From: a virus
IMG/VR virus record: IMGVR_UViG_3300030106_002217
Coordinates: 47,762 to 77,651 of that record
DNA length: 29,890 nucleotides
Direction: 5' to 3' (one strand)
The notes under the pieces were generated by a model that searched no databases, was not told the DNA's origin, and saw only the letters and a list, made by a program, of their open reading frames with translations. This document shows positions 2,148 through 15,138 of the stretch, piece after piece (position 1 is the stretch's first letter; every line of letters starts with the position of its first letter). The position numbers and the translations under genes are program-made.

Positions 2148-2600
2148 TTATTTTTTCTTATATAATAGTTCGCCCATCATGTTTTGGCTATATTCTAGTG
2201 CCATTTGAAAATGAGTTCCTTCTTTTCCATCTGATGGATTACGAAAATCATTCTTTGTCAAACTCAGTGATCTATTGCTTATGAATGATTCCACTGGAAA
2301 GAACAACACGGATTCTATATCCAGTGCAGCCAGTGCTATTATATCACAATCTTTTCTAGTGTAACATCTTCTGTCTTTGCCTTTTGATATACCAAAATAA
2401 TATTTACCTTCATCACTTTGTAATACTGTTTTAACTTCTACTCTTTGTGCTACTATTAATCCTTCTCCACCAACCACGGCTATATCAACACCGTCTTGTT
2501 TTATTAAAGATGCCGCGTAACCCATCATTGACAACTTAAATACTGTTAAGCTCTCACCTGCATTACCCACTATCTTCTCGGCTCTTACACCTTTAACCAT
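2148..2600 (-). CDS. PD-(D/E)XK nuclease, Holliday-junction-resolvase-like
   Basis: 150 residues. An N-terminal helix carries a Glu (GNAGESLTVFKLSMMGY). Then come GVDIAVVG with the catalytic Asp and RVEVKTVLQ with the E-x-K. This order (E, D, E-x-K) is the PD-(D/E)XK core found in archaeal-type Hjc resolvases and related phage endonucleases. It would cut branched or recombination intermediates before packaging. AT-rich DNA follows the gene. Its start overlaps the end of the helicase gene by 16 bases, so the two are probably made together. A restriction-type or repair nuclease of the same fold is an alternative. Confidence 0.65.
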   Translation of the reverse strand: MVKGVRAEKIVGNAGESLTVFKLSMMGYAASLIKQDGVDIAVVGGEGLIVAQRVEVKTVLQSDEGKYYFGISKGKDRRCYTRKDCDIIALAALDIESVLFFPVESFISNRSLSLTKNDFRNPSDGKEGTHFQMALEYSQNMMGELLYKKK

Positions 2601-4039
2601 TCTAATATCCTTTCTCCTAGTGTTATGTTTGCTAATTTGTTTTTGTTCACTAATGTTTTTACAATGTGAACATCAACAGTATTCGGACATACCAGGTCAA
2701 CATATAACACTTTATTCTGTTGCCCTACCCTATGTGCTCTATCCTCTGATTGAACACGAGACTCCAAATTAAAATCATTTGAATAATAAATCACATTCTT
2801 CGCGGCATGAAGTGTCAAACCCATACCACCTGTTTGTGGATTACTTACAAAGAACCTCGTGGGATCAGCCGAATCTTGAAACCTCGCAATAGCATTGTCT
2901 CTATCTGCCATAGTCGTGTCGCCAAAATAGGTAACCACGGAACTCGCACCATAGATTTGTGCTAACTTGCTTTGTATTTTTAAGATGTCATGTCTGAACC
3001 TTGACCATATAATAACCTTGCCTTCCATCTCTTCTATGACTTCAAGTAATACGTCTAACCTATTGTTCTCTATCTCTTTTGTTTCGCCATCATCTGTAAT
3101 CAGATAGCCACATAACAACTGTTGTAATCTCAAAAGCCGTGTCATAACTTCTGGAGTTGTGACCATCTCTCCACTTTCGAGAAGTGCTACTGATGTTTTC
3201 TTGATACTTTGATAGTATCTCTCTTGCTCCATTGTCAGATCAACTTGCCTGGTTGTATATATCTTCGGAGGCAAATCCAATGCCTCATCTTTCGTAACTC
3301 GGAACGAGTGTGGCTCAACTTTCTTTTTCAGTTCGTCCAGGTTCTTATACCCTATGATCTGATTGAACTGATGTGATCCCATCTTCACATTTTTAATCAC
3401 GGCATATCGTCCTTGAAACGACCAATACGATTCAAACCCCAAAATTTTTTTACTCATAAATAAACATTGTGAGTATAAATCAAGAGGCGACTTGGTTATC
3501 GGAGCACCCGTCAGTATTCTTTTGTACCTTGCTCCTTCAGCAAATTTTATTAGCGCCTTGGTTCTCTTCGCCTTGATATTCTTGATTGTGGTTGACTCAT
3601 CAACGGCAAGTAAAAAGGTACTTCTGTGGGTAAACATCTCCAAAAACTGAAACACTTTCTTTGAGGCAAAAGCCTCAACATTGACGAGTAGTATTCGTAA
3701 ATGTCTTCTTGCTTCCCCACCCACGGAGCTTTTTAAGTCTGCTTGTTCTCGTTTGTTAAGCGTTGACTTCCATGTGTATACCCTCGGAACTATATCATCT
3801 GTTAGATGTGCAGGTATTTCATTGTTCTTCCAATTCGTATACACACCTTTTGGTGCTACAACAATCGCAGTATCTATTTTACTATTCGAATAAAGCCAAG
3901 CAATATTATCAATCAATACCTTTGACTTACCGCACCCCATCTCCATAAAGTATGCAAAGTTTTCTTTGTCATAACTTTTATGGAGAGCATCTTCTTGATG
4001 CTTGTAGGGTTTGGTTTTGTAAGGAAAGACCACACTCAT
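2585..4039 (-). CDS. SNF2-family DEAD/DEAH-type helicase
   Basis: 484 residues with both RecA-like lobes. Q-region YKHQEDAL is near residue 12, Walker A MGCGKSK near 34-40, motif II VDEST near 146-150 (DEST instead of DEAH), and motif III LTGAPI near 177. In lobe 2 there are VIIWSRF, GGMGLTLHAA and the arginine-finger motif QSEDRAHRVGQ typical of SNF2 translocases. It would use ATP to move along duplex DNA, probably in replication or recombination. ATGA overlap couples it to the small gene upstream, and it overlaps the nuclease gene by 16 bases. Such helicases are very common in phages next to nucleases. Confidence 0.9.
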   Translation of the reverse strand: MSVVFPYKTKPYKHQEDALHKSYDKENFAYFMEMGCGKSKVLIDNIAWLYSNSKIDTAIVVAPKGVYTNWKNNEIPAHLTDDIVPRVYTWKSTLNKREQADLKSSVGGEARRHLRILLVNVEAFASKKVFQFLEMFTHRSTFLLAVDESTTIKNIKAKRTKALIKFAEGARYKRILTGAPITKSPLDLYSQCLFMSKKILGFESYWSFQGRYAVIKNVKMGSHQFNQIIGYKNLDELKKKVEPHSFRVTKDEALDLPPKIYTTRQVDLTMEQERYYQSIKKTSVALLESGEMVTTPEVMTRLLRLQQLLCGYLITDDGETKEIENNRLDVLLEVIEEMEGKVIIWSRFRHDILKIQSKLAQIYGASSVVTYFGDTTMADRDNAIARFQDSADPTRFFVSNPQTGGMGLTLHAAKNVIYYSNDFNLESRVQSEDRAHRVGQQNKVLYVDLVCPNTVDVHIVKTLVNKNKLANITLGERILEWLKV

Positions 4040-4254
4040 GTCGTAACCTTGTGTGGTCTCATCTCTCTTACCCTTAACTCATTCTGTAGCTTACCTATGA
4101 AGTCAACCATGTGCCTTCTTTCCGTTGCTACTTCAGAAGCATAAGGATAGTAGTCCAAATTATTTTCGGCATCAAATTTTTCTAACAACAACCTGGTGCT
4201 CTTGATACATAACTTAATCTCTTTTTGAGATAGTTTCATGTGAGACTGAGCCAT
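4036..4254 (-). CDS. Small protein of unknown function
   Basis: 72 residues, charged and mostly helical (KEIKLCIKSTRLLLEKFDAEN, then MVDFIGKLQNELRVREM). No domain is recognised. It is joined to both neighbours: its start shares one base with the stop of the ParB-like gene and its end overlaps the helicase start by four (ATGA). A helper of either neighbour is possible but unsupported by motif. Confidence 0.6.
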   Translation of the reverse strand: MAQSHMKLSQKEIKLCIKSTRLLLEKFDAENNLDYYPYASEVATERRHMVDFIGKLQNELRVREMRPHKVTT

Positions 4255-4991
4255 TAGCGAGACTCACGATACGTTTTTAATCGGATCTTCCTATCGGCTC
4301 CCGTATTATGGTTATATAATTTTTCTATATTAATTATAAAATCATTACGACTACCTTGGTTTTTTAGCTTCGAGGAGAAATGTCTCAACTTATTCTCGAA
4401 GATACTCCAAACAAAATCGGGATCTCTCATCACTGATATCATTGCATTGACAAAAGACTTCTTTCTAAAATGCTCAAAATATTCTCCTACTTTAATAATT
4501 GCAGAAGCCGTATCTTTTGCATGTTCCAGATCATGCACAACAAAATTTCCTAGCTTGAAATCCTCCAGGTCTTGTTGGCTACGATAACCCTTACCATTCA
4601 ACATGGCTATTGAATCCGTTATAGAAAAACCATACGTTCTGGTAAACCATTCCATGGTCTCATACTCTTTTGCTCCGAGTTTTACATGGCTCATCATGTA
4701 CTCTTGCATAGTCCACTTTCGATTTACTGAATTTAATTTTCGTATATCGTTCAACTTGAGACCCTCTTTTATAATATACTGCACGGGTAATCCCAATACC
4801 TTATATGCTTCTAGTCTATGTTGACCATCACATACTTCCATCTTCTCATTAACAATTATAGGTATTGCTAAATCTTTCGTTTCTATTTCGTTAGATAATT
4901 CTCTAACATGCTTATTAACTACTTCTCTATTACCCACGATATAGGTAAATTGATCGTAATCTGTCGTTGAATATATTCTATTATTCGGCAT
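4254..4991 (-). CDS. ParB/sulfiredoxin-like domain protein
   Basis: 245 residues. The N-terminal half carries IIVNEKMEVCDGQHRLEAYKVLG with the GQHR motif of the ParB/Srx fold, a nucleotide-binding or nuclease fold that uses CTP in true ParB proteins. The C-terminal half is helical, basic and not recognised (a possible DNA-binding part ends in DRKIRLKTYRESR). There is no partner ParA, so chromosome-type partition is unlikely. Phage members of this fold are often predicted nucleases or gene regulators. It follows the RHH gene with only a TAAATG junction, so the two are probably co-expressed. Confidence 0.7.
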   Translation of the reverse strand: MPNNRIYSTTDYDQFTYIVGNREVVNKHVRELSNEIETKDLAIPIIVNEKMEVCDGQHRLEAYKVLGLPVQYIIKEGLKLNDIRKLNSVNRKWTMQEYMMSHVKLGAKEYETMEWFTRTYGFSITDSIAMLNGKGYRSQQDLEDFKLGNFVVHDLEHAKDTASAIIKVGEYFEHFRKKSFVNAMISVMRDPDFVWSIFENKLRHFSSKLKNQGSRNDFIINIEKLYNHNTGADRKIRLKTYRESR

Positions 4992-6865: not shown

Positions 6866-7051
6866 TCAATCCTCTTCTGAATTATATACAATCTTTTCAG
6901 TTCCGTCTTTTTGTATTTCTGTGAGACACACATCATAACCTTTTTCTCTCCAATTATGATAATCCATTTGTGCTAGGCTAAAAGTTTTGTAGTAGTCATC
7001 ATTACCATCAACCCAAACTATGTATCTCCAACCATTTTTATAATCGTCCAT
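6866..7051 (-). CDS. Small acidic protein of unknown function
   Basis: 61 residues from ATG at 7051, chosen because GGAG lies seven bases upstream; an in-frame TTG two codons earlier lies too close to that site. The sequence has an aromatic-rich core (NGWRYIVWVDGNDDYY, then YHNWREKGYDV) and an acidic end. Its start overlaps the end of the methyltransferase gene by 14 bases. No domain is recognised. Confidence 0.55.
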   Translation of the reverse strand: MDDYKNGWRYIVWVDGNDDYYKTFSLAQMDYHNWREKGYDVCLTEIQKDGTEKIVYNSEED

Positions 7052-8147
7052 TTTCAATCTCCTTCTTTATTGCTAATCCAATTAACTTTGCATTTTGTGG
7101 TACGATAGCGTTACCCAATGCTTTCAACCTATTGGCTCTATCTTTCTGATTGACAACTATTCTTGGGACTCCTCTAGGTTCGTCCAACCAATAGGATACC
7201 CCATCAACCACTCCGTCCAATCGCAATTCAACCTTCCGTCTCCTTCCGTTTGATACATCTTCATTCCCAAGTCCATCTGTCTTCCCTTCTCCACTCGGTT
7301 CTCCCAAAAGTCCTTGTTGCCGTTGTAACTGTGCTTCTTCAGACTTGATGTCGGTGTTGGATAATTCCACTCTTCCATTCTTGGTGGTCGAAGAGTTACT
7401 CCGTTCATCATGGCTTGAGCTTCTGCTTCTGTCAGTTCTCCGTTCTCTACTTTCCTTCTGAACATCATTGTCTGACCTTCCGAGGCATGACCGAAACCTT
7501 TTGTTGTCGGTGTCGGATACATCTCCATTGTCTTGGGGTCTACTTGCTCTCTCAAATTGCTCGGTCTCTTGCGACCCTTTCTGTGTCCCTCTTGCATCTT
7601 CTTCGTTGCCTCTGCACTTCTCGGCGGCAAAGAATCCATAGTCGTGGGGGTCGCCCAAGTTTCTACAAATAATCCATAATCTTTCTCGTTTGTGTCTAGC
7701 TCCGATTGCACTAGACGGAAGTACAAATGTCCTCGTGTGGTAGTTGAGGCTTTCCATTGCAAAGAGTACCTCGTCAAGTCCCAATGAGAGGTGTCCATAA
7801 ACATTTTCGAAAACGCAATAAGTGGGTCTGACTTGTTTAATAAGTTTATGCAAGTACGGAAAGATGTGGCGAGGGTCTTGCGTTCCACCCCTTTTGCCAC
7901 TTGTTGAGAATGGTTGACACGGATATCCTGCCGTGAGGATATCTGGTCGTTCTGAAATAAATCTTGTTGGGTCATGTGCTATCTCCTTAACATCATTATA
8001 AATTGGAATACCTGGAAAGTTTTTGGCAAGAACTTTCTGACAAAACTTGTCTGTGTCGCAAAAAGCGATTGGCTCTGATAACTCTGCCATAGAAAAACCT
8101 ACGGCAAAGCCACCAATACCACTACATAAATCTAAATGCTTGAGCAT
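7038..8147 (-). CDS. dcm: DNA (cytosine-5) methyltransferase
   Basis: 369 residues from ATG at 8147, preferred over the upstream in-frame ATG at 8177 because AAGGAG lies seven bases before it and its A overlaps the upstream stop (TGATG). Motif I is DLCSGIGGF (6-14), motif IV GYPCQPFS with catalytic Cys at 77, motif VI FENV (113-116), motif VIII ARHKRERLW, and motif X RANRLKALGNAIVPQ near the end. The target-recognition region (about 180-300) is unusually hydrophilic. It transfers methyl groups from AdoMet to cytosine C5, probably shielding phage DNA from host restriction. No restriction partner adjoins it. A second gene lies inside it in another frame. Confidence 0.92.
   Translation of the reverse strand: MLKHLDLCSGIGGFAVGFSMAELSEPIAFCDTDKFCQKVLAKNFPGIPIYNDVKEIAHDPTRFISERPDILTAGYPCQPFSTSGKRGGTQDPRHIFPYLHKLIKQVRPTYCVFENVYGHLSLGLDEVLFAMESLNYHTRTFVLPSSAIGARHKRERLWIICRNLGDPHDYGFFAAEKCRGNEEDARGTQKGSQETEQFERASRPQDNGDVSDTDNKRFRSCLGRSDNDVQKESRERRTDRSRSSSHDERSNSSTTKNGRVELSNTDIKSEEAQLQRQQGLLGEPSGEGKTDGLGNEDVSNGRRRKVELRLDGVVDGVSYWLDEPRGVPRIVVNQKDRANRLKALGNAIVPQNAKLIGLAIKKEIENGRL
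7157..7975 (-). CDS. Gene within the methyltransferase gene, alternative frame (W/Y-P-T-P-T repeat protein)
   Basis: A 272-codon frame lies wholly inside the methyltransferase gene on the same strand. Its ATG at 7975 has AAGGAG seven bases upstream, a site formed by methyltransferase codons Lys54-Glu55. The protein has three spaced motifs, WATPTT (107-112), YPTPTT (153-158) and YPTPTS (205-210), and near its end WLMGYPIGWT (256-265). I recall a widespread phage protein family with exactly these marks (WPTPTA repeats, then EWLMGFPIGWT near the end), usually called hypothetical or methyltransferase-associated. It is therefore likely translated. A function tied to methylation is plausible but unproven. 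Confidence 0.6.
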   Translation of the reverse strand: MTQQDLFQNDQISSRQDIRVNHSQQVAKGVERKTLATSFRTCINLLNKSDPLIAFSKMFMDTSHWDLTRYSLQWKASTTTRGHLYFRLVQSELDTNEKDYGLFVETWATPTTMDSLPPRSAEATKKMQEGHRKGRKRPSNLREQVDPKTMEMYPTPTTKGFGHASEGQTMMFRRKVENGELTEAEAQAMMNGVTLRPPRMEEWNYPTPTSSLKKHSYNGNKDFWENRVEKGRQMDLGMKMYQTEGDGRLNCDWTEWLMGYPIGWTNLEESQE

Positions 8148-8362
8148 CAATAATCTCCTTCTTCGTATGTATCCCATACTAAAACAAGAGTGTCGTTTTT
8201 TATTTCATCTATAAATTTTTTCTTTGCTAATTCTTTTGCTTCTTCTGTAAGCTCTGAAAATCCTTTTAAATGAACTCCACTATCTATATAAACATCAATA
8301 CCTTTAGACTTTTCAAAATATCCATCTGGGATATTAGTTTTAAATTTTATTTTCTCTTTCAT
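8147..8362 (-). CDS. Small protein of unknown function
   Basis: 71 residues, with a strand-rich first half (KIKFKTNIPDGYF, then GIDVYIDSGVHLKG) and a helix (SELTEEAKELAKKKFIDEI) before an acidic end. AGGAG lies before the ATG. The stop overlaps the methyltransferase start (TGATG), so the two are coupled. It begins 15 bases after the tRNA in the same transcript. No family is recognised. Confidence 0.6.
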   Translation of the reverse strand: MKEKIKFKTNIPDGYFEKSKGIDVYIDSGVHLKGFSELTEEAKELAKKKFIDEIKNDTLVLVWDTYEEGDY

Positions 8363-8377
8363 TTTTACTCCTATTAT

Positions 8378-8451
8378 TGGAGAGGGTAGAGGGATTCGAA
8401 CCCTCGTAAATGGTTTTGCAGACCATCTCCTAACCTCTCGGACATACCCTC
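8378..8451 (-). tRNA. tRNA-Cys (anticodon GCA)
   Basis: The 74-base minus-strand sequence folds as a full cloverleaf. The acceptor stem is GAGGGTA/TACCCTC, the anticodon stem ATGGT/ACCAT with loop CTGCAAA (anticodon GCA), and the T arm GAGGG-TTCGAAT-CCCTC. The discriminator base is U, an identity element of tRNA-Cys, and CCA is encoded. It lies between two small genes in the leftward operon and must be cut out of the mRNA. Confidence 0.95.
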
Positions 8452-10842: not shown

Positions 10843-10955
10843 TTTTTCCCCCTTACATATTCTTTTGTTTCTTCTTGCTCTTCAACAATGATTTGTAAAA
10901 CATACAAACCACTTAAAAACCATTCTTGGTTTTTTAAATATTCTTGCTCTTTCAT
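10833..10955 (-). CDS. Very small acidic protein (40 residues)
   Basis: The frame reads MKEQEYLKNQEWFLSGLYVL then QIIVEEQEETKEYVRGKKWQ. AAAGG precedes the ATG, and the stop overlaps the next gene by ten bases. It is the first frame after a minus-strand promoter at 10996-11024. It might be a true peptide or mainly a leader that couples translation of the next gene. Confidence 0.5.
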   Translation of the reverse strand: MKEQEYLKNQEWFLSGLYVLQIIVEEQEETKEYVRGKKWQ

Positions 10956-10981
10956 TTTATAACCTTTCTGTTAAAATTAAA

Positions 10982-11010
10982 TTAAGCCTTAATTATTTAT
11001 CCCATATAAT
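10982..11010 (+). promoter_or_regulatory. Plus-strand promoter for the nuclease gene
   Basis: A perfect TATAAT lies at 11005-11010 with TTAAGC (three of six) 17 bases upstream. The nuclease start follows 22 bases after the -10 box. It overlaps the divergent minus-strand promoter, so the two should compete. Confidence 0.45.
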
Positions 11011-11024
11011 CTTATAAAGGTCAA
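10996..11024 (-). promoter_or_regulatory. Minus-strand promoter for the small-gene operon
   Basis: TTGACC (11024-11019) is followed after 17 bases by GATAAA (11001-10996), four of six matches. It reads into the run of small genes from 10955 down to the methyltransferase. Confidence 0.5.
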
Positions 11025-11032
11025 GCGATAAA

Positions 11033-11449
11033 ATGAAAGAAAAACAATTTTTTTTGAATATAAAAAAGCAGTTACCACCAAATACTTTTATACAAAAAAT
11101 TGAAAATAAATTTAATAGTGGTTTTACTGATGTAATAATAATTAATAAAAAACTACCATTATTTATTGAGTTAAAATCGCCAACAAAAGGAAACAAATTT
11201 AAGGTTGAATTGTCCCAAATATCAACGCATTTGAGGATACAAGCCAATAATTATGTTTCTTTTTTCTTGGTTCGACACCCTTCAACCTCGCTTCTATATT
11301 TGTTTGAAGGTGGTTTGCTCTGCAAGTTTCTTGCGTCCCAACCTTGCAACCCTTCTCTGTCCCCCCAGACCGAAGGATTTTTGGTGCGTGGTGCGTTGAA
11401 CATAGTCCTGGCACTTGCAAATCAAAGAGTGGAACAGTTGCAGAAATAA
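11033..11449 (+). CDS. PD-(D/E)XK (VRR-NUC-like) nuclease with repeat-derived tail
   Basis: 138 residues. The core is NSGFTDVIIINKKLPLFIEL followed by KSP, that is D-x12-E-x-K, the PD-(D/E)XK active site, then HLRIQANNYVSFFLVRHP and LYLFEG, as in short VRR-NUC proteins of phages. It would cut structured DNA. From about residue 92 on (LCKFLASQPCNPSL) the sequence loses family character and coincides with a diverged copy of the hairpin repeat found nearby. The stop itself is inside hairpin copy A. The only ribosome signal is AAAGG 12 bases before the ATG. It is a lone plus-strand gene among minus-strand ones. Confidence 0.65.
   Translation: MKEKQFFLNIKKQLPPNTFIQKIENKFNSGFTDVIIINKKLPLFIELKSPTKGNKFKVELSQISTHLRIQANNYVSFFLVRHPSTSLLYLFEGGLLCKFLASQPCNPSLSPQTEGFLVRGALNIVLALANQRVEQLQK
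11299..11336. repeat. Diverged hairpin-repeat copy inside the nuclease tail
   Basis: TTTGCTCTGCAA followed by TTTCTTGC matches the inner part of copy A (ATTGCTCTGCAA then TTTCTGC), with GAAGGTGG in place of GAAGTG. The inner stem TTGC/GCAA is kept; the outer 11-bp stem is not. Confidence 0.4.
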
Positions 11450-11479
11450 CGAAGTGATTGCTCTGCAAATTTCTGCAAC
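11437..11479. repeat. Hairpin repeat copy A
   Basis: A perfect 11-bp stem GTTGCAGAAAT (11437-11447) / ATTTCTGCAAC (11469-11479) encloses a 21-base loop AACGAAGTG + ATTGCTCTGCAA. On the minus strand the loop holds a small inner hairpin TTGC-AGA-GCAA. It covers the stop of the nuclease gene. Confidence 0.75.
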
Positions 11480-11524
11480 TTTTACCACGGAAGGCATCTG
11501 CGATTTTAAAAAAAATTTCTTGAC

Positions 11525-11567
11525 ATCGCAAAGGAAACGAAGTGGTTGCATTGCAATCCTTTGCGAT
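11525..11567. repeat. Hairpin repeat copy B
   Basis: A perfect 11-bp stem ATCGCAAAGGA (11525-11535) / TCCTTTGCGAT (11557-11567) encloses a 21-base loop AACGAAGTG + GTTGCATTGCAA. It has the same size and loop as copy A but a different stem. On the plus strand it ends in TTTTT, so it could stop transcription from the nuclease gene. TTGAC lies directly before it. Confidence 0.75.
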
Positions 11568-11616
11568 TTTTGCCTTCAGACACGCACAACGCAAAAAAAT
11601 CCAGAGCTGCTGCACC

Positions 11617-11642
11617 AAAAAAAAGAGAGCCGAAGCTCTCTT
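11617..11642 (-). terminator. Rho-independent terminator with UUCG loop
   Basis: On the minus strand AAGAGAGC-TTCG-GCTCTCTT is followed by an unbroken T run. It lies just beyond the stop of the gene ending at 11663. Confidence 0.92.
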
Positions 11643-11662
11643 GATTTTGGTTCTCCTCCTTT

Positions 11663-12103
11663 CTACCATGAAGCACGATAATGAACACCTCTTGGCTCGA
11701 TATATAAATCGTATTTCTGTTGCATCTCCAGACCTTCCTTCAAGAACTCAATAGCTTTTTCAAAACAACTAATCGCATAGTTTTTTTCTGGCTCGTTGTA
11801 ATAACCGAACTCGGTTGAGTTCCCAAAGAAGAAGCCAGAGTGGTCAAGTTTTAAATTATCGTTGCGAATGGCATCAATAATTTCTTCTAAGTCTTTTTGT
11901 GTTAACTGAATTTCCTGGCAGTTATCTTCACCCTTTGCGAACTTATCAACAATAAAGCCGTGAAGGTCGGCGTGCTTACGCCAATAACCAAGGTCAACTT
12001 TATAATCTGAAATGGCATATTTGCCATCTAACTTCGGTTGAGGAAGTTCCTCGTGATAAGGTGAGTTATATTGCTCACCTCTTAAATACATATCTAAACC
12101 CAT
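11663..12103 (-). CDS. Conserved phage protein (MGLDMYL family), unknown function
   Basis: 146 residues starting MGLDMYLRGEQY. The pattern continues with VDLGYWRKHADLHGFIV near 36-52, then CQEIQLTQKDLEEIIDAI, HSGFFFG near 89-95, and it ends YRASW. This is a family I recognise in many phages; it is sometimes misannotated as phosphoglycerate kinase and has no established role. It forms its own unit with a good promoter (12140-12168), AAAGGAG before the ATG, and a strong UUCG terminator, so it is probably well expressed on its own. Confidence 0.75.
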   Translation of the reverse strand: MGLDMYLRGEQYNSPYHEELPQPKLDGKYAISDYKVDLGYWRKHADLHGFIVDKFAKGEDNCQEIQLTQKDLEEIIDAIRNDNLKLDHSGFFFGNSTEFGYYNEPEKNYAISCFEKAIEFLKEGLEMQQKYDLYIEPRGVHYRASW

Positions 12104-12139
12104 AATTTTTCTCCTTTCATTTTAAAATTATGCTCTTCC

Positions 12140-12168
12140 ATTATATCCCATGCAGTCCCATAATGCAA
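12140..12168 (-). promoter_or_regulatory. Sigma70-like promoter for the MGLDMYL-family gene
   Basis: TTGCAT (12168-12163) and a perfect TATAAT (12145-12140) are 17 bases apart on the minus strand. Transcription would start about 30 bases before the ATG at 12103. Confidence 0.75.
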
Positions 12169-12218
12169 CCAAAACATTTCACGAAGCGTGAACTGCAACT
12201 CGAAAAAAAATTCTTGAC

Positions 12219-12270
12219 ATCGCAAAGGAAACGAAACGAAGTGAAGTGGTCGCTTGCGATCCTTTGCGAT
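12219..12270. repeat. Hairpin repeat copy C
   Basis: The outer stem ATCGCAAAGGA / TCCTTTGCGAT is identical to that of copy B. The 30-base loop is longer because ACGA and AGTG units are doubled. The inner hairpin is TCGC-AA-GCGA instead of TTGC-NNN-GCAA, so both sides changed together. The flanks (A-run then TTCTTGAC before, TTTTTG after) also match copy B. Confidence 0.75.
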
Positions 12271-12296
12271 TTTTGTCTGCAAGCCTTCGCCAGAAG

Positions 12297-12326
12297 AAAA
12301 AAAAGAGAGTGCCGAAGCACCCTCCT
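12297..12326 (-). terminator. Rho-independent terminator with UUCG loop
   Basis: On the minus strand AAGGAGGGTGC-TTCG-GCACTCTCTT forms a stem with two G-U pairs, followed by eight T. On the plus strand these G-U pairs become A-C mismatches, so the structure is specific to the minus strand. It serves the gene ending at 12349. Confidence 0.85.
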
Positions 12327-12348
12327 TCTCTTTCCGTGGTCGTGGAAA

Positions 12349-12639
12349 CTATATATAATCTGCAAAGGGATCACGACCAGTTATCTCCTTCTCTGCTTTT
12401 AATGATAGCTTTGGATCATATGGCTCGACATATATGTTTGCCTTTACACAACCATAGTAATCGACATAGTATGATGAACCTCTTTCGAACTTACCACCAA
12501 ACAATCTTTCCCATTCCTTTTTCGCTTTGCGAATGTCTCTGGTTTTGAATTGCTTTCCTCTGCCAATACTATCGACAGTTTCTGTATCAATAACATATTT
12601 AAAATTATAATCGAATGATTGTTTTTTCTTACCCATCAT
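12349..12639 (-). CDS. Small protein of unknown function
   Basis: 96 residues beginning MMGKKKQSFDYNFKYVIDTE. A basic first half (KTRDIRKAKKEWERLFGGKF) is followed by a strand region with YYVDYYGCVKANIYVEPYDP. GAGGAG lies four bases before the first ATG and seven before the second, so translation may begin at 12636. It overlaps the upstream gene by 11 bases and is followed by a terminator. No domain is recognised. Confidence 0.6.
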   Translation of the reverse strand: MMGKKKQSFDYNFKYVIDTETVDSIGRGKQFKTRDIRKAKKEWERLFGGKFERGSSYYVDYYGCVKANIYVEPYDPKLSLKAEKEITGRDPFADYI

Positions 12640-12838
12640 AATGCTCCTCTAAAAAGTCCTTCATTACTTTGGTTGATGATGTGTAAAGAGAACCATTCTC
12701 GTAATACACATTCTCGTTAATAAAGTGTGCAAGATGACCACCACAAATATTGCCCTCATTGTAAGCCTTAAGAATAAACTCGGCAAGATCAATATCTTCT
12801 AAATCATCCCACTCTTTGCTTTGCGAATCTACTGTCAT
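12629..12838 (-). CDS. Small acidic protein of unknown function
   Basis: 69 residues, acidic, helical in its first half (DLEDIDLAEFILKAYNEG), then GGHLAHFINENVYYENGS. AAAGGAAA lies before the ATG, beyond a terminator that ends the coiled-coil gene, so expression here may depend on read-through. No domain is recognised. Confidence 0.6.
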   Translation of the reverse strand: MTVDSQSKEWDDLEDIDLAEFILKAYNEGNICGGHLAHFINENVYYENGSLYTSSTKVMKDFLEEHYDG

Positions 12839-12852
12839 TTTATTTCCTTTCT

Positions 12853-12883
12853 AAAAAAATAGTGAGGACATTTCTGTCCCCAC
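12853..12883 (-). terminator. Rho-independent terminator with GAAA loop
   Basis: On the minus strand GTGGGGACA-GAAA-TGTCCTCAC forms a nine-pair stem (one G-U), followed by TATTTTTTT. It lies just past the stop at 12891. Confidence 0.9.
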
Positions 12884-12890
12884 TTCCCAA

Positions 12891-13217
12891 CTATTCGTTG
12901 GATGCTTTTGGTGTTGGATTCTCAAGGTTGTAAACCTTTGTCTTGAGTTCAACGATTTGCTCTTGCAAACCCTTGACTACTGACTTCTTGTAAACGGCAG
13001 AATCATCACCGATAATCTTGGAAACTATTGTATCCACGACCACTTGTGCGATTGCAGTTTCATCTAAGTTTTCAACTTGAGATCTGATATCATCGACATC
13101 ATTACGAAGATCTTGAACCACATAAGAGTTGTCAACACACTCGTTGACTTTCTCGTCAATGACTTCTTCGATCTTGTCCGTAATAAAAGATTCGATAGTT
13201 TCGCCAATATCACTCAT
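12891..13217 (-). CDS. Acidic coiled-coil protein, probably strongly expressed
   Basis: 108 residues from ATG at 13217 (MSDIGETIESFITDKIEEVI). The start is set by AAGGAGGTGAT, a full-length match to the 16S rRNA tail; an ATG six codons earlier precedes that site and is ignored. Repeated hydrophobic heptads (VQDLRNDVDDIRSQVENLD and LQEQIVELKTKVYNLEN) indicate coiled coils. With an extended -10 promoter and its own terminator it is set up for high expression as the first leftward transcript from the divergent region. The function is unknown; an early host-takeover protein is a guess. Confidence 0.7.
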   Translation of the reverse strand: MSDIGETIESFITDKIEEVIDEKVNECVDNSYVVQDLRNDVDDIRSQVENLDETAIAQVVVDTIVSKIIGDDSAVYKKSVVKGLQEQIVELKTKVYNLENPTPKASNE

Positions 13218-13242
13218 ATTATCACCTCCTTTCATCTATAAG

Positions 13243-13269
13243 ATTATATCAAAATAATCCCAGAGTCAA
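13243..13269 (-). promoter_or_regulatory. Extended -10 promoter for the coiled-coil gene
   Basis: TTGACT (13269-13264) and TATAAT (13248-13243) are 15 bases apart, and TGA precedes TATAAT, giving an extended -10 box that tolerates the short spacer. It reads leftward from the divergent intergenic region. Confidence 0.7.
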
Positions 13270-13359
13270 GCATATTGCCTACAATATTTTTTGATACTAG
13301 ATATCAGTTTTTATGATGCTCGGTCTGTCTGTCCTTGCAACCCAAAAAATCACTCTTGG

Positions 13360-13522
13360 AAAAAGAATCTAGATTCGCAGAAATTTTCTCAAAGAAAATT
13401 TAGATTCACAAGCTAGAATAAAATAACAATAAAAATAACTAAAATTTTTATTTTATTCTAGATTGGGAAGCGTAATCTATCGACCACTTGGGAGATAGAT
13501 TCTGCGAATCTAGATTCTTTTT
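13360..13522. repeat. Cloverleaf-like set of inverted repeats before terL
   Basis: A perfect 23-bp inverted repeat (13360-13382 with 13500-13522, core GAATCTAGATTCGCAGAA) encloses three further hairpins: ATTTTCT/AGAAAAT (13383-13399, loop CAA), CTAGAATAAAATAA/TTATTTTATTCTAG (13413-13461), and TCTATC/GATAGA (13476-13499). Together they form one closing stem with three arms. The motif TAGATTCGC or close variants occurs twice direct and twice inverted. It lies in a 424-base divergent region with no gene. It could be an origin, a packaging site or a structured RNA. Confidence 0.75.
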
Positions 13523-13568
13523 TAGGGGTTACTTACTACAAAACTACACGACAAACAAAAACAAGAGA

Positions 13569-13591
13569 GGGGGGAGGGGTAGAATGGGGGG
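13569..13591 (+). other. G-rich tract upstream of terL
   Basis: Six G, A, four G, TAGAAT, six G lie in AT-rich DNA about 70 bases before terL. It might form a G-quadruplex or be a strand-specific protein site. Nothing else is recognised in 13523-13659 apart from a weak TTGATA/TATTAT pair. Confidence 0.5.
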
Positions 13592-13659
13592 TACAAACAT
13601 ACACATAGTCATACATATGCAGGGTTGATAAATTCATTTGGATATATTATCGTTGGGAC

Positions 13660-15138
13660 ATGTCACTAGATGCGTTACCCAAAGAGGTGTTACAAGAAGT
13701 ATTTCTGCTAGAACAACAGAAAAACAAACTGGACACCCGTGAAAAAGCACAAGAAAATTTTTTGGATTATGCCCAACATGTATATGAAGGTTTTATCGTT
13801 GGGCGACATCATAAAATTATTGCAGAAAAATTGGAGCTAATCGCACAAGGCAAACTTAAGAGACTGATTGTAAACATGCCACCAAGACACTCGAAGTCAG
13901 AGATGGCATCTTATCTCATGCCCTCGTGGTTCTTGGGACGTAATCCAAAACTCAAGATTATCCAAGCCACGATGAATACAGAGCTTGCCGTAAGGTTTGG
14001 TCGTAAGGTCAGAGACTTGATTGCCGATCCAGTGTACACGGAAGTTTTTCCAGAAACCGATTTGAAGCAAGACAGTCAAGCAGCGGGTCGTTGGGAGACA
14101 AGTGCTGGTGGCGAGTATTTTGCAGCTGGCGTTGGTGCGGCAATGACTGGTCGTGGTGCAGACTTGTTGATTATTGATGACCCACACTCGGAACAAGATG
14201 CACTGTCCTCGGTTGCTTATGATAATACATACGAGTGGTACACATCGGGTCCGAGACAGAGATTACAACCTGGGGGAACCATCATCATTGTGCAAACAAG
14301 ATGGTCAAAGAAAGACCTCACGGGCAGATTAGTCCAGGCTATGGCGAAGGATACCATGTCTGATCAATGGGATATTGTAGAGTTCCCAGCGATTCTACCG
14401 AATGATAAAATTTTGTGGCCCGAGTTTTGGAACAAGGACGAGTTGTTAAAAGTCAAAGCGTCATTGTCACCTATGAAATGGAACGCCCAGTGGCAACAGA
14501 ATCCGACATCTGAAGAAACGGCAATGATCAAAAGGGAGTGGTGGACTCCGTGGGAAGAGAAAGAAGTGCCGAAGTTAGATTATATTTTGCAGTCATATGA
14601 CACGGCATACAGTAAAAAGGAGACAGCAGACTATTCTGCAATTACAACTTGGGGTGTATTTGAGCCAAAAGTCAACGGACAACAGCATTTAATTATGCTT
14701 GATGCGAAGAAAGGGCGCTGGAGTTTTCCAGAGTTGAAGGAGATTGCGATAGAAGAAAACGAATATTGGGAACCAGATATGATGCTTATCGAGGCAAAAG
14801 CCAGTGGTCAACCCTTGGCAGATGAACTGAGAATGATGAATTTACCAGTTTTGACTTTCAGTCCAGGCAGACGCAAAGGGGGTAACTTAGACAAAACGAC
14901 AAGAATGCACATTGTTTCTCCTATTTTCGAATCTGGAAAAGTGTGGTATCCTAGTGGAGAGAAGTTTGCAGAAGATGTAATAGAAGAAGTTGCATCTTTT
15001 CCAAATGGCGATCATGATGACTATTGTGATAGTATGACAATGGCAGTTATGAGATTTAGACAAGGTGGGTTTATCTCACTGGATGGCGAAGACGAAGGAG
15101 AGGACTGGTTTCCTCGATCAAAAAGGGAGTATTACTAA
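13660..15138 (+). CDS. terL: Terminase large subunit
   Basis: 492 residues. The ATPase lobe has a Walker A-like loop PPRHSKS (74-80), Walker B LLIIDD (169-174) and the coupling motif IIIVQTRW. The nuclease lobe starts with the RNase H-like QSYDTAYS (Asp at about 314), followed by MLIEAKASG and DHDDYCDSM acidic motifs. It translocates DNA into the procapsid through the portal and cuts the concatemer. The length is usual for the family. The ribosome site is weak (GGGA). The small subunit lies 7 kb away on the same strand. Its stop shares a base with the next ATG (TAATG). Confidence 0.95.
   Translation: MSLDALPKEVLQEVFLLEQQKNKLDTREKAQENFLDYAQHVYEGFIVGRHHKIIAEKLELIAQGKLKRLIVNMPPRHSKSEMASYLMPSWFLGRNPKLKIIQATMNTELAVRFGRKVRDLIADPVYTEVFPETDLKQDSQAAGRWETSAGGEYFAAGVGAAMTGRGADLLIIDDPHSEQDALSSVAYDNTYEWYTSGPRQRLQPGGTIIIVQTRWSKKDLTGRLVQAMAKDTMSDQWDIVEFPAILPNDKILWPEFWNKDELLKVKASLSPMKWNAQWQQNPTSEETAMIKREWWTPWEEKEVPKLDYILQSYDTAYSKKETADYSAITTWGVFEPKVNGQQHLIMLDAKKGRWSFPELKEIAIEENEYWEPDMMLIEAKASGQPLADELRMMNLPVLTFSPGRRKGGNLDKTTRMHIVSPIFESGKVWYPSGEKFAEDVIEEVASFPNGDHDDYCDSMTMAVMRFRQGGFISLDGEDEGEDWFPRSKREYY

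Follow-up and report, generated by a model that had tools for sequence, protein, structure and literature searches.

A hairpin element with three covarying arms recurs in one variable locus of a set of marine phages represented here by metagenomic contigs, always in the same orientation, and probably stops transcription between neighbouring genes. The window analysed (29,890 bases) is the end of a virus record of 77,651 bases (the 77.6-kb record G000) and contains three copies, A, B and C. The family as a whole comprises 91 copies, 53 of them distinct (identical copies were counted once), in 86 related phage regions. Each copy has an outer stem (P1) and two inner arms (P2 and P3), and the third covarying arm, P2, is the main new structural finding.

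The terminase of the window shares 59% identity with that of Pelagibacter phage HTVC027P. Genes on the left of the window run leftward, and terL and the structural genes run rightward from 13660. Hairpins A, B and C and a series of small leftward genes all lie between a rightward nuclease gene and terL (Table 1). Copy A overlaps the stop codon of the nuclease (TAA at 11447-11449) and B and C are intergenic, in agreement with an earlier note on this DNA that had placed the hairpins in gaps or gene ends. The same note had described perfectly paired outer stems in A and B, and an inner stem of TTGC...GCAA there that changes to TCGC...GCGA in C. Both descriptions were borne out, with a perfect outer stem in C as well; the outer stem measures 12 bp in A and 11 bp in B and C, and the flanks said to be common to B and C are 97% identical over 33 nt before the element and 89% identical over 28 nt after it. 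The loop thought to be common to all three copies, AACGAAGTG, is present in A and B; C has a symmetrical expansion instead, and the stretch is not a plain loop, as it includes the third short covarying arm. The outer stems of A and B are perfectly paired as claimed and are not wholly unrelated, with 5 of 11 positions identical and both fitting the family consensus TnGCAAAGG. A supposed fourth copy within the nuclease gene had to be withdrawn: it matches part of A, has neither core nor outer stem, and was not reported by the covariance model at E <= 1.

When each window copy was folded as single-stranded DNA, z was in the range -4.2 to -4.3, and not one of 200 shuffles was as good. The covariance model gave E values of 1.7e-12, 4e-14 and 2.6e-9 for the window copies, A and B having been in its building set. 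Copies A, B and C are not chance structures. Elsewhere the window encodes a SNF2-type helicase (2585-4039), a ParB-like protein (4254-4991), a C-5 cytosine methylase (7038-8177) and a tRNA-Cys (8378-8451).

Table 1. Features between the nuclease and terL in the window. Positions are those of the window.
Feature	Position	Strand	Remarks
Small nuclease, conserved	11033..11449	+	PD-(D/E)xK, Hjc/RecU-like fold, weak matches; stop codon overlaps copy A
Partial repeat of copy A	11315..11331	+	16/17 nt, inside nuclease frame; not counted as family member
Copy A, three-way-junction hairpin	11436..11480	+	P1 11436-11447/11469-11480; T-run follows
Copy A, inner arms	P2 11449-11455; P3 11458-11461/11465-11468	+	P2 ACGAAGT; P3 TTGC/GCAA
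Copy B	11525..11567	+	P1 11525-11535/11557-11567; P2 11537-11543; P3 11546-11549/11553-11556; T-run follows
Ordinary terminator-like hairpin	11623..11642	-	3' end of gene 11663-12103; adjoins copy B
Accessory gene, family F14	11663..12103	-	Between copies B and C
Copy C	12219..12270	+	P1 12219-12229/12260-12270; T-run follows
Copy C, inner arms	P2 12231-12247; P3 12250-12259	+	Expanded P2, AC GAA AC GAA GT GAA GT; P3 TCGC TT GCGA
Accessory gene, family F13	12349..12639	-	Right of copy C
Accessory gene, family F8	12629..12838	-	
Accessory gene, family F1	12891..13235	-	
Terminase large subunit (terL)	13660..15138	+	Right border of region

Pairing was analysed across the 53 distinct copies. Of 901 pair cells, 97.4% are paired, compared with 79.8% after shuffling and 31-43% in slid versions of the structure. 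Thirteen of the 17 pairs change on both sides, and 169 both-sided changes stand against 3 one-sided ones, counted over pair cells that are not independent events. The view that the structure is selected or maintained is strongly supported by these both-sided changes. Thirty-six copies have P2 as A-C-GRA-G-T and the other 17 as A-T-GRA-A-T (ACGAAGT <-> ATGAAAT), so that its variable pair is C-G or T-A and never anything else; the search pattern allowed any base at this pair, and no mixed pair turned up. By virtue of this covariation within the AACGAAGTG stretch, each copy is a three-way junction. Locus L041 has two copies with the same stem and P3 and a different P2, which suggests that the P2 switch occurred more than once. 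Longer P2 arms (ACTCC...GGAGT) were found in L012, L099 and L112. By eye, two stacked two-pair steps split by GRA/GRA can be made out in window copy C, L037 and one L041 copy, whereas folding programs give other inner structures for these copies.

Orthologous copies were compared at different levels of flank identity. At 70-80% identity (13 of 60 pairs), one-sided changes averaged 0.00 of 16 per pair, with about 8.8 expected if unconstrained, and both-sided changes averaged 1.62 per pair; this result likewise supports a selected or maintained structure. At >=90% identity (28 pairs), the one-sided mean was 0.54 and the both-sided mean 0.00, and among the rows listed the one-sided changes at this level involve L099, L134, or L104 compared with L128. 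Concerted evolution of stems within a genome was rejected, stem similarity being 0.597 within genomes (54 pairs, 23 genomes) versus 0.608 between them (1112 pairs). Template switching in DNA replication can yield paired changes in one step, according to PMC8794818, and covariation alone is therefore no proof of selection for function.

To delimit the family, the viral collection was searched with TerL, giving 80 loci, and with the nuclease, giving 74. These and the loci found by pattern yielded 136 regions starting at the nuclease, of which 86 remained after duplicate removal. A covariance model, R1, was built from 24 copies, as the earlier note had suggested. A search of 88 sources with R1 yielded 44 matches at E<1e-4, every one of them plus-strand. 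They include the window and 22 of the 80 TerL loci, many other TerL contigs stopping short of the region. Two longer records had one copy each at E<=0.01. R1 found nothing at E<=1 in the remainder of G000 (L087-L089), and nothing in those parts of HTVC027P, HTVC023P, DSL-LC04 and 023Pt_psg01 (L116-L119) that were searched. Among 52 pattern loci checked in the viral collection, 47 had the core in a paired stem, in every case together with a nuclease homolog. The remaining loci, L004, L005, L006, L113 and L249, had no stem and no nuclease, terL or portal homolog. Loci L026, L032, L036 and L159 came up again in pattern scans and stand outside this 52-locus table, and the expanded-P2 copies (window C, L037, one of L041 and the L012 group) miss the pattern and stand outside the 91. 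For the junction, wobble, stem-likeness, fold-probability, T-tail and G-T counts, the 10 of 86 regions with nuclease identity <46% were left out, giving 76 regions; L071 was additionally left out of the indel-junction count.

When bacterial and archaeal genomes were scanned for the core in its C-G form, 42 loci were found. A chromosomal repeat of the host was rejected, as 41 of these loci have outer pairing of <=5 bp and come from scattered taxa. In the exception, L221 from a Prevotellaceae genome, 4 bp pair directly and the palindrome goes on beyond a mismatch. This long imperfect palindrome has an identical 20-nt core and scores 44 bits with R1, and the genome has one further weak match. A blastn search with the element against phage records gave no match, and a literature search, mostly of titles and partial texts, brought up nothing recognised as such an element in these phages.

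In the related phages the nuclease and terL are fixed, and the combination of gene families between them (F1-F45, mostly leftward) varies, according to gene calls that are heuristic and include false ORFs. Hairpins of the region include the three-armed J, the simpler S, with loops such as GAGTTTGCGA, and the long-loop L. They alternate with ordinary short-loop hairpins (t), frequently in the order hairpin, t, leftward gene. Short stretches similar to the terminator-like hairpin that adjoins copy B are present in phage records. In L072, L073, L077, L078 and L086 the gap between nuclease and terL is only 147-165 bp, with no accessory genes, and no hairpin was found. A second palindrome (CTAGAATAAAATAA...TTATTTTATTCTAG) lies just upstream of terL in the window (13398-13476) and at the same place in relatives L011, L018, L022 and L039, where its outer arms are changed yet paired. 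In the more distant relatives L070, L080, L082 and L085, repeated TTAACATGTTAA palindromes replace the three-armed element at corresponding places between accessory genes. Perfect hairpins of 13-14 bp with 3-nt loops lie inside the nuclease coding sequence of L014, L018, L020 and L022, near the site of the supposed fourth copy.

The position and orientation of the element were examined in relation to transcription. All 91 copies lie between the nuclease gene and terL, on the plus (terL) strand. The left neighbour of the 53 distinct copies is the nuclease in 28 and a minus-strand gene in 25; of the latter copies, 19 have minus-strand genes on both sides, and the next feature is a plus-strand call in 3 and terL in 3. 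Of the 76 regions, 57 have a hairpin at the stop codon of the nuclease, with a loop of >5 nt in 56. T-tails were scored on 51 of the 53 distinct copies, the remaining two having no stem long enough to an outer G-C pair. For copies at the end of the nuclease gene, the plus side scored 2.03 versus 0.85 for the minus side and was higher in 26 of 27 copies; internal copies scored 2.33 and 1.95, respectively, with the plus side higher in 16 of 24 (background, 0.96). Tails are one-sided after the nuclease and two-sided between cassettes. T is most frequent 2-5 bases beyond the outermost G-C pair, and from base 7 onward its frequency is 0-0.26. Together with the overlap of the nuclease stop codon, the T-tail statistics favour plus-strand termination. 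An A-run also precedes many copies on the plus strand at a constant spacing, about 12-15 nt upstream of the outermost G-C pair (for example AAAAAAGTTCTTGC), as judged from a T frequency of 0.5-0.7 at positions 12-15 on the minus side.

We put at about even the chance that the elements are plus-strand intrinsic terminators with an ornate head, which shield the nuclease, the cassettes and terL from read-through. In such a terminator the perfect outer stem P1 would bear the three-way junction, with P2 as a two-base-pair arm with a GRA loop and P3 as a TCGC/GCGA hairpin, and a short T-run would follow. Through the first copy, the nuclease mRNA would terminate at its own stop codon. Internal copies would prevent rightward transcription from reading antisense through the small accessory genes, which run leftward, and the last copy would keep rightward transcription out of the late terL operon. 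With anatomy, orientation, position and T-run observed, we infer termination and, likewise, the reason for the conserved head, which may be a protein-binding site, a 3'-end protector, or a sequence that recombination and template switching have spread and maintained.

Like intrinsic (rho-independent) terminators, the element has a stable hairpin stem and an overlap with a stop codon, and T is enriched on its 3' side, with a strand bias at the nuclease end; unlike them, it has a three-way-junction head with a conserved core, a moderate T-run and ordinary terminators adjoining it. The lack of hairpins in the five relatives with a short nuclease-terL gap was counted in favour of termination. Against it count the 19 of 76 regions in which the nuclease stop has no hairpin, the modest share of tails above the 95th percentile of background (only 33% at the nuclease end and 50% internally), and the conserved three-way junction, which a terminator does not need. 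A simple terminator scan (loops of 3-8) did not list A, B or C and listed ordinary terminators nearby, indicating that the phage also uses plainer terminators.

In the PeSL promoter-terminator cassettes of T4-type phages, stem-loops reportedly recur between small, exchangeable genes of a variable region, and an early promoter is said to be attached to the stem-loop. By description, the repeated stem-loops between interchangeable small genes would make these the closest known arrangement, although the element points against most accessory genes. Promoter-like matches in 10900-13800 numbered 13, versus 8.6 expected, and were not tied to the copies. We therefore regard the element as a form of terminator-like punctuation, with DNA exchange as the bold alternative.

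It is unlikely that the element acts as a functional structured RNA, each copy being a plus-strand domain with a role in binding a protein of phage or host, in protecting 3' ends or as the end of a small RNA. The three covarying arms, the G-R-A loop and the TCGC/GCGA arm would suit such a domain, and the L012 copy, with its longer P2, keeps the three-way junction in both DNA and RNA folding. In the window copies, however, the junction was not the best RNA structure; the only Rfam 15 match in the window was the tRNA, and a search over 11250-12330 gave two matches only, both far below the gathering score. The 19 distinct copies between two minus-strand genes also speak against this reading. A ribosome site with the GTG start of a small ORF, considered by eye, was set aside.

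Folding probabilities were counted against the terminator reading. On the plus strand, the mean probability of P3 was 0.31 with RNA parameters versus 0.47 with DNA parameters, and that of P2 was weak both ways (0.002 and 0.07). The minus strand gave higher P3 values in both sets (0.44 and 0.63), which does not favour a plus-strand reading. Folding probabilities give no decision on strand or molecule and in part favour the minus strand. Wobble was rejected as a test of either: the copies contain 5 G-T versus 3 A-C pairs, and G-T makes up 1.1% of stem pairs in J copies versus 2.2% in ordinary short-loop hairpins, the finder for which admits G-T and not A-C.

Integron attC sites have variable stems with a conserved shape and lie in one orientation in an array of small genes. 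The element shares all these features, but no tyrosine recombinase integrase was found with it (PF00589, 0 of 3 records, which may be incomplete). A plus-strand branched single-stranded DNA or cruciform, acted on by a resolvase-like nuclease or by general recombination, would make the copies points of cassette exchange; we consider this rather improbable. PMC4686876 describes a GNA-loop rule for very stable DNA mini-hairpins, in DNA fragments with at least two G-C pairs. The Y-GRA-R of P2 fits this rule, although the closing pairs there are G-C, whereas P2 is part of a junction and has C-G or T-A followed by A-T as its closing pairs. The predicted structure of the nuclease (mean pLDDT 84.4; invariant residues E24, D33, E46 and K48) resembles Hjc and RecU-like resolvases, but the matches are weak (best E 4.3e-3, none at E<=0.001) and the nuclease is kept also in relatives without hairpins. 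Two apparent recombinants, with breakpoints inside copies, suit exchange: L099 copy 421 combines a left arm from one L135 copy with a right arm from the L135 copy that follows, and L178 lacks a segment between two copies that its relatives have. A common core of ~20 nt would, however, permit ordinary homologous deletion. Indel junctions lay within 25 bp of a J/S/L/X hairpin in 7 of 21 cases versus 15% expected, a mild enrichment that leaves 14 of 21 away from hairpins. Neither a tyrosine recombinase nor a Y1 transposase was found in the three records, and the lower wobble content of the copies does not single out DNA. The boldest form, a folding-dependent DNA exchange site of phages in which a plus-strand junction with GNA arms is read by the adjoining nuclease, as an integron-like array without integrase, is a long shot.

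A largely mutational origin, in which palindromes are born and kept perfect by template switching in replication (a mechanism described in PMC8794818) and tolerated between genes, is likewise quite improbable. It would account for the near absence of intermediates (3 one-sided and 169 two-sided cells), but leaves unexplained the single orientation in 91 of 91 copies, the invariant core, the T-run and the restriction to one locus. Mobile palindromes of the REP/MITE kind, offered by the earlier note, are very improbable: the element resembles REP/RAYT in being a short repeated palindrome between genes, and several copies per genome, a common core and the imperfect palindrome in the Prevotellaceae genome speak for mobility, but a randomly mobile palindrome was rejected on its one orientation, its one locus (47 of 47 with the nuclease) and its absence elsewhere in G000, and neither a Y1 transposase (PF01797, 0 of 3 records, which may be incomplete) nor homogenisation of stems within genomes was found.

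The element is a well-supported structured element, with 13 of 17 pairs changing on both sides, that is confined to one variable locus of marine phages. Model R1 and alignment A4 provide a direct means to seek it in infection transcriptomes. If its head is read as DNA, the element would be a rare phage example of gene exchange directed by structure. If transcription does end at the element, it shows how phages of this kind can acquire small genes and leave the adjoining ones undisturbed.
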